Positions 29,632 through 33,218 of a stretch of DNA of 64,000 bases are shown one piece after another. The notes beneath the pieces were generated by a model. The model was not told the DNA's origin, searched no databases, and saw nothing but the letters and a program-made list of their open reading frames with translations. Positions within the stretch are counted from its first letter, which is position 1, and each line of letters starts with the position of its first letter. A program made the translations under genes and the position numbers. The DNA comes from Nocardioides soli (lineage in GTDB: Bacteria; Actinomycetota; Actinomycetes; Propionibacteriales; Nocardioidaceae). The stretch lies in the NCBI RefSeq assembly GCF_014191495.1, contig NZ_JACHWR010000001.1, forward strand, positions 1,922,001 through 1,986,000, read 5' to 3'.

Positions 29632-30576
29632 TCAGCGACGCGCCTCCGCGATCGCGTAGAGCGCCACGGACGCCGCGACGCCGGCGTTCAGGGACTCGAG
29701 CTGGTTGGCCATCGGGATCGACACCAGCTGGTCACAGGTCTCGGAGACCAAGCGCGATAGGCCGTTGCCCTCCGAGCCGACCACGACGACCAGCGGCCCG
29801 TCGGCCAGGTCGAGGTCGGGCAGGCTGACGTCGCCGTCGGCCGCGAGGCCGACGACCATGCAGCCCGCCTCCTGGTAGGCCTTGAGCTGGCGCACCAGGT
29901 TGACGGTCTGCGCGACCGGGATCCGGGCCGCGGCCCCGGCGCTGGTCTTCCACGCGGCGGCGGTCATGCCGGCCGCGCGGCGCTCGGGGATGAGTACGCC
30001 GTGGGCGCCGAAGCCGGCCGCGCTGCGGATGACCGCGCCGAGGTTGCGCGGGTCGGTCACCTGGTCGAGGGCGACGATGAGCGGCTTCTCGGCGTTGACC
30101 GCGGCAGCGTCGAGGAGGTCGTCGGCGTGGGCGTACTCGTACGCCGGGATCCGCGCCGCGAGGCCCTGGTGCACCGCGCCGCCGGTCATCCGGTCGAGCT
30201 CGGACCTGGAGACCTCGAGCAGCTTGATGCCCCGGTCGGCCGCGAGCTGGAACGCCTCGCGCATGCGGCCGTCACGCTCGGCACCCTCGCCGACGTAGAG
30301 CGCGGTGACGGGCACACCCTCGCGCAGCGCCTCGACGACGGAGTTGCGGCCGGCGACCCACTCGGCGTCGCTCGACGTGCGCCGCTTGGGCCGACGGGCC
30401 TGATCCTTCTCGGCACGCTTCGCCGCCTTGTGCGCGGCGTGGTAAGGCCGGTCCTTGGCCTTCGGCGTCGGCCCCTTGCCCTCGAGGCCGCGGCGCACCC
30501 GGCCGCCCGACCCCGCGGTCGGGTTGCCCTTGCTGCTCTTGCGGATCGCGCCCTTGCGCTGCGAATTGCCAGCCAC
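29632..30576 (-). CDS. rlmB: 23S rRNA 2'-O-methyltransferase RlmB/TrmH type (SpoU)
   Basis: The 314-residue SPOUT enzyme has a basic N-terminal extension (about 1-75, Lys/Arg/Gly-rich), a substrate-binding domain ([11 protein letters not shown]), and the trefoil-knot motifs [29 protein letters not shown] and [13 protein letters not shown]. It methylates the ribose of a 23S rRNA guanosine. The GTG at 30576 is chosen because GGTGGAAGG lies 7 bases upstream, right after the cysS stop; an upstream ATG at 30591 overlaps that site. The cysS-rlmB pairing is conserved in actinobacteria. Confidence 0.9.
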
Positions 30577-30597
30577 GTCAGTGCCTTCCACCGGTCA

Positions 30598-31983
30598 TCA
30601 GGCCAGGCTCCACTTCGGTCCGTCGGGGGTGTCCTCCACCTCGACGCCGGCCGCCTTGATCCGGTCGCGGATCGCGTCGGCGGTCGCGAAGTCCTTGGCG
30701 GCGCGGGCCTGTGCGCGCTGCTCGAGCAGCCCGGCGACGAGCGCGTCGACCGCGTCGGTGAGCCGCTGGTCGTCGGCGGCGCCGGCCCAGACCGGGTCGG
30801 CCGGGTCGAGGCCGAGCACGCCCAGCATCGCCCGCACCTGCGCGGCGTACGGCGTCGCGTCGTCCCGGTTGCCCAGCGCGGCATTTCCTTGTCGCACCGT
30901 GTCGTAGACGACCGCGATGGCCGCGGGCGTGCCCAGGTCGTCGTTCATCGCCGCGACGAAGGCCTCCGGCAGCTCGCCCGCCGCCACGTCGCCGGCGCGG
31001 TCGAGGAAGCTCTCGATCCGGCGGAAGCCGGCGGCGGCCTCGTCGAGCGCGTCGAAGCTGAACTCGACGTGGCTGCGGTAGTGGGCGGCCAGCAGGTAGT
31101 AGCGCAGCTCGATGCCCCGGTACTTCTGGAGCACTGCGGGGATCGTCAGCGAGTTGCCGAGCGACTTGCTCATCTTCTCGCCGGCGGTGGTGATCCAGGC
31201 GTTGTGCATCCAGTACGACGCGAACCGCTGGCCGGCCGCGCGCGACTGGGCCTGCTCGTTCTCGTGGTGCGGGAAGCGCAAATCGACGCCGCCGCCGTGG
31301 ATGTCGAAGGCGGAGCCGAGGTACTTGCCGGCCATCGCCGAGCACTCGATGTGCCAGCCCGGGCGTCCGCGGCCCCATGGGCTCGGCCACGACGCGGTCT
31401 CGGGCTCGGAGTCCTTGCGGCCCTTCCAGAGCGCGAAGTCGCGCGGGTCCCGCTTCCCGCGCGGATCGGCGTCCTCGGCGGCCTCCATGTCGTCGATGCG
31501 CTGGTGGGTGAGCTCGCCGTACTGCGGCCAGGAGCGGACGTCGAAGTAGACGTCGCCGGAGCCGTCCGCGGCGGCGTACGCATGCCCCCCGTCGATCAGC
31601 AGCTGGATCAGCTCGATCATCTCGGGCACGTGGCCGGTGGCGGCCGGCTCGTAGGTCGGCGGCGCGACGTTGAGCGCGTCGTAGGCCCGGTCGAGCTCGC
31701 GCTTCATCCGATAGGCGAGCTCGTACCAGGCGAGGCCCTGGTCGGCCGACTTGGTCAGGATCTTGTCGTCGATGTCGGTGACGTTGCGGATGAAGGTCAC
31801 GTCGTAGCCGAGGTGGCGCAGCCAGCGCTGCAGGACGTCGAAGTTCACCCCCGAGCGCACGTGGCCGACGTGCGGCTCGGACTGCACGGTGAGGCCGCAG
31901 ACGTAGAGGCCCACTTTCCCCTCCTCGAGGGGAACGAAGTCACGGACTTCGCGGGTCGCGGTGTCGTACAGCCTGAAGGTCAC
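30598..31983 (-). CDS. cysS: Cysteinyl-tRNA synthetase
   Basis: The 461-residue class I synthetase has [19 protein letters not shown], with the zinc Cys and HIGH-type HVGH, then [17 protein letters not shown] and KMSKSLGNS. It charges tRNA-Cys. The start is the GTG at 31983: TAGACT lies 7 bases upstream, and no Shine-Dalgarno is present, so the mRNA is probably leaderless. Its -10 box overlaps the -10 box of the divergent C39-like gene by 2 bp. It heads an operon with rlmB and the metallophosphoesterase gene. Confidence 0.96.
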
Positions 31984-31990
31984 ACCGGGA

Positions 31991-32000
31991 AGTCTAGGGT
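31991..32000. promoter_or_regulatory. Overlapping divergent -10 boxes of cysS and the C39-like peptidase gene
   Basis: The ten bases AGTCTAGGGT contain TAGACT read on the minus strand (31991-31996) and TAGGGT on the plus strand (31995-32000), sharing two bases. The two start codons are only 23 bp apart, each 6-7 bases from its -10 box. The two promoters cannot be melted together, so their use should be mutually exclusive. Confidence 0.7.
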
Positions 32001-32006
32001 TTGTGG

Positions 32007-33218
32007 GTGAGCCGCCCGACATTGCCGATCCTGGCCACCGTCCTCGCCGGCGCCCTCGTGGCGCCGCTCCTCGCCGCCGCACCCGCCTCGGGCGCGCCGG
32101 CACGACGGATCGACTACGCCCAGTGGGACACCGCGACGGAGCTGCGCTCCGGCACGCTCGCCGGGGTTCGCGTCGGCGCCGGCGGCCGGATCTCGCTGCC
32201 ACCGGACACCCGTGCCGGCATCTGGCGCTCGCCCTGGGCGCAGCCCGGCTTCCGGCTCACCCGGCTGATCGCGTCGTGGGACGCGCGCACGCCGGGCAAC
32301 AGCCGGATCCGCATCGACGTGCGCGGCCGCACCGGCACGACGACGTCGAGCTGGGACACGCTGGGCGTCTGGGCCGAGCACGACCGGTTCTTCCGGCGTA
32401 CGACCAAGGGCCCGCAGCGCGACGACCTCGGGTCGGTCAGCGTCGACACCTGGGCGGTGCCCGGCGGCGTCACGGCGTACCAGCTGCGGGTGACGCTGGT
32501 GCGCCGGGCCGGCCAGGCCCGCTCGCCCTTCGTCGACACGGTCGGCGCGGTGGCGTCCCGCCTGCCGGACGTCTCGTCGGTGCCGACCTCGAAGCCGGGT
32601 CCGGCGAGCGGGATCGTGCTCGACGTGCCGGGGTACTCCCAGATGATCCATCGCGGCCACTACCCGGAGTACGGCGCGGGCGGCGAGGCGTGGTGCTCGC
32701 CCACGTCGACGTCGATGGTGCTCGGCTACTACGGCGCGCTGCCGGACGCCGCGGCCTACGCCTCGGTGCCCGCGAACCACGTCGACCCGTGGGTCGACCA
32801 CGCGGCCCGGATGACCTACGACTACGCCTACCGGGGCACCGGCAACTGGCCCTTCAACACGGCGTACGCCGCGACGCTGGTCGACCGCGCCTTCGTGACC
32901 CGGCTGCGGTCGCTGCGCGAGGCCGAGCTCTTCATCCAGGCGGGCATCCCGCTGGTGGCGTCGATCGCCTTCGGACGCGGTCAGCTGACCGGGGCGCCGA
33001 TCTCGTCGTCCAACGGGCACCTGCTGGTGATCAGCGGCTTCACCGACACCGGCGACGTGGTCGTCAACGACCCGGCCGCCGCGAGCGACGCCGCCGTGCG
33101 GCGTACCTACGACCGCGGCGAGTTCGAGAACGTCTGGCTCCCCGCCTCCGGCGGCACCGTCTACGTGATCGCCGACGCCGCCCATCCGCTGCCGGTCAGC
33201 CCGCGAGGAAACTGGTAG
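32007..33218 (+). CDS. Secreted C39-like cysteine peptidase domain protein
   Basis: The 403-residue protein has a signal peptide (1-31, ending ASGAPA) and a beta-rich domain of about 150 residues. A Peptidase_C39_2 region follows: [11 protein letters not shown], the nucleophile Cys in [17 protein letters not shown], and the catalytic His in [23 protein letters not shown]. It is likely exported and may cleave or bind peptides. The GTG at 32007 is chosen because TAGGGT lies 6 bases upstream; an in-frame TTG at 32001 overlaps the promoter. Confidence 0.82.

Follow-up and report, generated by a model that had tools for sequence, protein, structure and literature searches.

How two genes that are transcribed away from each other can both be served by only 23 bp of DNA is the question raised by a locus in Nocardioides soli, located in a window of 64,000 nucleotides (the whole stretch of DNA that was analysed, to which all positions refer). 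The gap (31984-32006) separates cysS, an essential gene, from a divergent gene for an exported C39-like peptidase (see table). In profile searches the product of cysS scored 447 bits against TIGR00435 (cut-off 340) and also matched PF01406, and residues 205-357 of the C39 protein belong to the family PF13529, Peptidase_C39_2 (94.9 bits, curated cut-off 24). By eye the N-terminus of the C39 protein resembles a signal peptide, and export is thus predicted. Hand-typed patterns for the Cys, His and Asp motifs were all found in 79 of 86 C39 relatives among the matches listed, which suggests that these proteins have peptidase activity. On the other side of the gap an rlmB-like gene begins 6 bp past the cysS stop codon, and the two are probably co-transcribed. 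To our knowledge there is no regulator common to cysS and C39.

Features at the cysS/C39 locus (positions are those of the window)
Feature	Positions	Strand	Remark
rlmB-like 23S rRNA methyltransferase gene	29632..30591	-	TIGR00186, 199 bits, cut-off 160
cysS, cysteine--tRNA ligase	30598..31983	-	GTG start 31983-31981
cysS box-to-start spacer	31984..31990		7 nt
cysS -10 box TAGACT	31991..31996	-	7 nt ahead of start codon
Self-complementary TA common to both boxes	31995..31996	both	T31995, A31996; positions -12/-11 of each promoter
C39 -10 box TAGGGT	31995..32000	+	6 nt ahead of start codon
C39 box-to-start spacer	32001..32006		6 nt
Exported C39-like peptidase gene	32007..33218	+	GTG start 32007-32009

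Both cysS and C39 have, some 6-7 nt ahead of their start codons, the TANNNT box that marks leaderless actinobacterial genes, and the two boxes overlap reciprocally on opposite strands, which is the defining arrangement of the E. coli class of bidirectional promoters. The sequence-only reading had placed the starts 23 bp apart, with TAGACT and TAGGGT sharing two bases, and the letters agree with this. The core (31991-32000, 10 bp) reads AGTCTAGGGT, in which 31991-31994 are private to the cysS box and 31997-32000 private to the C39 box. With both mRNAs leaderless, transcription would start at two sites 24 bp from each other. Neither promoter of the window locus showed a good -35 hexamer on inspection by eye, and in a literature search judged by title we found no start-site map for Nocardioides. 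We consider it probable that 31984-32006 is a minimal bidirectional promoter that gives rise to two leaderless mRNAs, although transcription of cysS might begin at another site when conditions differ.

To what extent can such boxes be expected by chance? In 400 kb of the same genome (G000, the window's own assembly, 5.81 Mb) TANNNT was found 5-8 nt before the called start in 61 of 372 genes, and in the window in 21 of 59, compared to 0-7/372 and 0-3/59 at six displaced control offsets; the former values are inflated, because the gene caller favours starts having such boxes. C39 relatives are present in 127 of 149 genomes of the family, and 110 loci (30 + 80) were fetched by C39 protein similarity, among the matches listed. 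After 15 loci with no cysS in the fetched stretch, eight duplicates and one with cysS not upstream had been set aside, 86 loci with cysS divergently upstream of C39 were analysed, of which 12 are compact and 74 spaced. The box-distance script and the trees drew on 85 loci (73 spaced), and L095 was added for the totals of 86 and 74. The cysS -10 box was found 5-8 nt before the homologous start in 85 of these 86 loci among the matches listed (the exception being L025), whether C39 was close or distant.

The compact loci among the matches listed (L001, L031-L039, L059 and L061) share the TA and have an intergenic distance of 22-23 bp, and all 12 keep AGTCTANNGT together with a start codon exactly 6 nt after the plus box. 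As they were fetched by C39 protein similarity and not by pattern, the fact that all 12 stand in the same register gives support beyond chance. Among the compact strains are Nocardioides sp. URHA0032 (L035) and PD653-B2 (L039), and N. psychrotolerans is one of their spaced sisters. Three further compact loci (L115, L123 and L134) came from a pattern search that required a T as the sixth base of the plus box. In all 15 the shared TA is conserved, the plus box is kept as TANNGT and the C39 spacer is exactly 6 nt, with five of its six positions varying and the last base a G in every case. The cysS spacer in compact relatives is 6-7 nt, with variable letters. The sixth base of the plus box is a T in 12/12 compact loci, as compared to 1/73 spaced loci with a cysS box among the matches listed (a count that leaves out L025, which has none); it is also a T in the three pattern-found loci, where the pattern itself demands it. 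The core is also selected for cysS alone, and the plus box is therefore backed chiefly by its last T, the fixed 6-nt spacing and the recurrence of the arrangement. Judged from these conserved letters, the overlap of the boxes at cysS/C39 is not a product of chance. Hence the proposal of divergent leaderless promoters with overlapping boxes, made in the sequence-only reading, is well supported by conservation, with start sites that are predicted.

A CATC-like stretch was also often observed 25-28 bases past the shared TA, where it falls inside C39 codons in the compact loci; in spaced loci it is often present as well, equally far upstream of the cysS box. Possibly this stretch belongs to the cysS promoter as an upstream element.

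According to the script, 69 of the 73 spaced loci among the matches listed had a TANNNT box ahead of an in-frame C39 start, and one was also found in L095; the C39 starts were here picked to favour the box, and no box was given for L079, L082, L084 and L087. The box is most often TAYCGT, placed 6 nt before RTG. This suggests that C39 in most spaced relatives has a leaderless promoter of its own, farther off from cysS. The TA-to-TA distance among the matches listed (n = 69 spaced loci, L025 excluded as it has none) was 51-213 bp in 58 loci and 290-1,963 bp in ten. In L052 it is 25 bp and no repeats are present, which gives a partly shortened state, and L095 is spaced (132 bp) with no triple repeat.

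The repeats in question are direct repeats of the TGTGAC type with a 9-bp period, which lie upstream of C39 and abut the -10 box in many spaced loci; in L002, L003, L010, L044 and other spaced loci their position is some 12-40 bp ahead of the C39 start codon. Three in-phase repeats were present in 42 of 74 spaced loci among the matches listed, whereas among 1480 base shuffles 3 had them. The triple repeat and the -10 box stay beside C39 even in L017 and L073, with genes that are 1.2-1.8 kb apart. None of the 12 compact loci among the matches listed has three in-phase repeats, in searched stretches that were shorter (83-353 bases) than the spaced median of 299, and the compact loci thus lack a C39-specific upstream region that is present in many relatives.

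With their GTNAC-like half sites the repeats resemble those of MtrA. On our reading of the published MtrA direct repeats (PMC13189361, PMC6265350, in the sections available) these have a period of about 11 bp, as compared to 9 bp and often three copies at C39, and on this ground MtrA was set aside as regulator of the repeats and kept as a lead. A strict pattern of triple repeat plus -10 box matched two places in 2 of 30 genomes and is uninformative on a regulon, since it missed known cases such as G129, the source of L002, which carries a variant middle repeat. Among the matches listed in a literature search for TGTGAC direct repeats, no paper contained TGTGAC.

Trees were built on CysS plus C39. 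A quick tree of 87 rows comprised 84 of the 85 loci (one was dropped for a short cysS piece) together with L115, L123 and L134. The compact loci fall in three groups: the window's clade (11 rows), L059/L061/L134, and L115 beside the spaced L015. The quick tree has three changes of state, its strongly supported branches force three, and a single compact clade was disfavoured (AU p 0.035). A careful tree of 58 hand-chosen rows out of the 87 also has three changes (5-95% bootstrap range 3-3, with one change in 0% of 200 bootstrap trees), whereas its strongly supported branches alone force two. On these trees the compact form is derived from a spaced ancestor, and the most parsimonious account is three independent gains; transfer of the entire region from one lineage to another would be an alternative route to the same pattern. 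The gene order is the same in sister species that have spaced promoters.

By what route was the compact form reached? We tentatively put forward a promoter collapse, in which a deletion would have joined the TA of two outward-facing -10 boxes and turned two promoters into one, about three times at cysS/C39. As each box begins with the self-complementary TA, such a deletion would preserve both boxes and both distances to the start codons, and two separate leaderless promoters would yield one reciprocal promoter of 22-24 bp. It would at the same time deprive C39 of the control region that lay upstream of it, in many cases with three 9-bp repeats, and couple the gene for an exported peptidase to that of a housekeeping tRNA synthetase. 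Possibly, but with less than even confidence, no fusion of boxes was involved in the origin of the compact form: C39 lost its promoter by deletion or was moved beside cysS, and the plus box then appeared by point mutation, an origin that is compatible with a shared bidirectional promoter today. A single change to T at the sixth position is enough to make the plus box, and in the main clade the two bases that follow TA (GG, GA) look more like the cysS side than like the TAYCGT of the C39 side, while those of L059/L061 are more like the C39 side. On the other hand, with gene order unchanged in the spaced sisters one local deletion is enough, and the partly shortened L052, with its short TA-to-TA distance and loss of repeats, also speaks against a route without fusion.

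Another explanation, which we regard as improbable, is that only cysS is promoted here, that the C39 promoter has been deleted and that C39 is weakly expressed or driven from inside cysS, the TAGGGT on the plus strand being incidental. This would fit with the fact that the cysS box, present in nearly all loci, explains much of the core, and with G being the most frequent letter at all three positions that follow the TA, also in spaced loci. It fits poorly with the near-exclusive sixth-base T of the compact loci, with a start codon that is always 6 nt away, with a compact state that was reached about three times, and with C39 motif patterns that are intact in 12/12 compact loci among the matches listed.

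A bidirectional promoter at 31984-32006 would work as follows. The housekeeping sigma factor and RNA polymerase would engage the core in either orientation, and since the TA supplies -12/-11 to both promoters, melting would start at the same two base pairs. Leftward melting would give a leaderless cysS(-rlmB) mRNA and rightward melting one of C39, likewise leaderless. As there is room for a single polymerase, occupancy would alternate. At ordinary firing rates the outputs of cysS and C39 are expected to be nearly independent, while both would depend jointly on the shared TA, and changes in the TA would hurt both genes.

The sequence-only reading went further, and took the overlap to make an essential tRNA synthetase and an exported peptidase mutually exclusive. 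Strong steric competition of this kind, where high cysS initiation silences the peptidase, is in our view unlikely: polymerase footprints must overlap and cysS, being essential, could be highly active, but inspection of the 23 bp by eye revealed no activator site, none of the 12 compact loci among the matches listed has the repeats from which strong C39 expression might be driven, and we know of no functional link between the two genes. At the E. coli bidirectional promoters the opposite direction can be repressed when one direction is substantially activated, yet when one -35 hexamer was weakened at each of five such promoters the opposite RNA was little affected, indicating little competition at basal activity in 5/5 (PMC12825309, in the sections available). 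The claim of exclusive expression was thus overstated. That one promoter is opened at a time does follow from the geometry and from the single-polymerase occupancy stated for bidirectional promoters in the same text; the step from there to mutually exclusive expression is unsupported.

The arrangement is in line with what has been described in other bacteria. The same reciprocal -10 overlap is found in the bidirectional promoters of E. coli and Salmonella (Warman, Grainger; PMC12825309, PMC10268837, available sections), which are defined by divergent start sites 7-25 bp apart. In E. coli the sites are commonly 18, 10 or 23 bp apart (PMC12825309, available sections), and the predicted spacing here, and that of 23 bp predicted in most compact relatives, lies within the 7-25 bp range and stands beside the 23-bp class. 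Unlike the mapped start sites in E. coli and Salmonella, those of cysS and C39 are predicted, and so is the leaderless nature of both mRNAs, whereby the entire non-coding control region would amount to 22-24 bp. In Mycobacterium tuberculosis, according to the available part of PMC3898074, 73% of primary start sites have a TANNNT motif centred 7-12 bp ahead of them, promoters have no conserved -35 motif, leaderless mRNAs are common (of 14 tRNA synthetase genes for which there is a primary start site, 7 have such an mRNA) and closely juxtaposed divergent promoters are called common. The cysS/C39 locus, with its predicted leaderless mRNAs, resembles this in all four respects; the same part of that account makes no mention of a shared -10 dinucleotide or its evolution.

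Is the geometry restricted to cysS/C39? A pattern anchored on GTCAC and AGTCTA was found at 37 places in 34 of 215 genomes of the genus, compared to two control counts. Fourteen of the 37 are cysS/C39 (12 translated, two by promoter letters only), four are prephenate dehydratase/DUF4446 (L113, L131, L137 and L140, all translated, with Pfam on L131 only), six are BKACE genes diverging from an unnamed gene (four translated, two by letters, Pfam on one) and one is a dUTPase/DUF3093 pair. Two more we take to be TetR/AlgH-like and methionine aminopeptidase-like, and two uncharacterised places stand outside the gene-pair counts. The last eight are presumably TetR-like genes, with no real gene on the right side (seven translated, one by letters). 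In L112, L118, L119, L124, L128, L138 and L139 the partly symmetrical AGTCTACTCT lies over the leaderless -10 box of the conserved TetR-like gene, and there it may serve as an operator and not as a promoter for both directions.

The 6+6 spacing was found at two places in G000, with no control count. L203 (G000:C1:38713-38740) lies between LamB_YcsF (minus strand) and a Peptidase_S9_N prolyl-oligopeptidase (plus strand), 22 bp apart, and L204 (G000:C1:745071-745098) between MDMPI_N (minus strand) and GPP34 (plus strand), both with the TA shared. Within 1.264 Mb of G000 both boxes were present in 19 of 195 divergent pairs, with a TA-to-TA distance of 0 in two and from 22 upward in the next; MDMPI_N/GPP34 is in the same stretch but outside the 19 pairs, as the caller picked other starts. 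These few cases hint at a preference for sharing the TA over other close spacings. At the level of the order, 245 genomes were scanned with a fixed pattern, which matched in 66 of them with 89 rows; counted by hand these are 81 distinct places, and the control counts, summed by hand, come to 24. Perhaps a quarter of these matches, made by pattern only, are due to chance. Promoter collapse may underlie other TA-sharing pairs in these genomes.

Taken together, the promoter class itself is already known, including its 23-bp spacing, and so are leaderless and juxtaposed divergent promoters in mycobacteria. In the titles and opening abstracts among the matches listed in an open-access literature search there were no TA-sharing leaderless pairs, nor did we find a description of promoter fusion by deletion among the matches listed in that search. 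What is new is the evolutionary series, which points to a repeated collapse of two promoters into one, with deletion as the presumed mechanism. Bidirectional promoters have been suggested as an early step in promoter evolution (PMC10268837, available sections). The series of spaced, partly shortened and fused cysS/C39 loci points the opposite way, to two established promoters merging, apparently more than once and with a visible loss of upstream sequence. The named strains let the cost or benefit of an essential and an accessory gene sharing one -10 core be measured.
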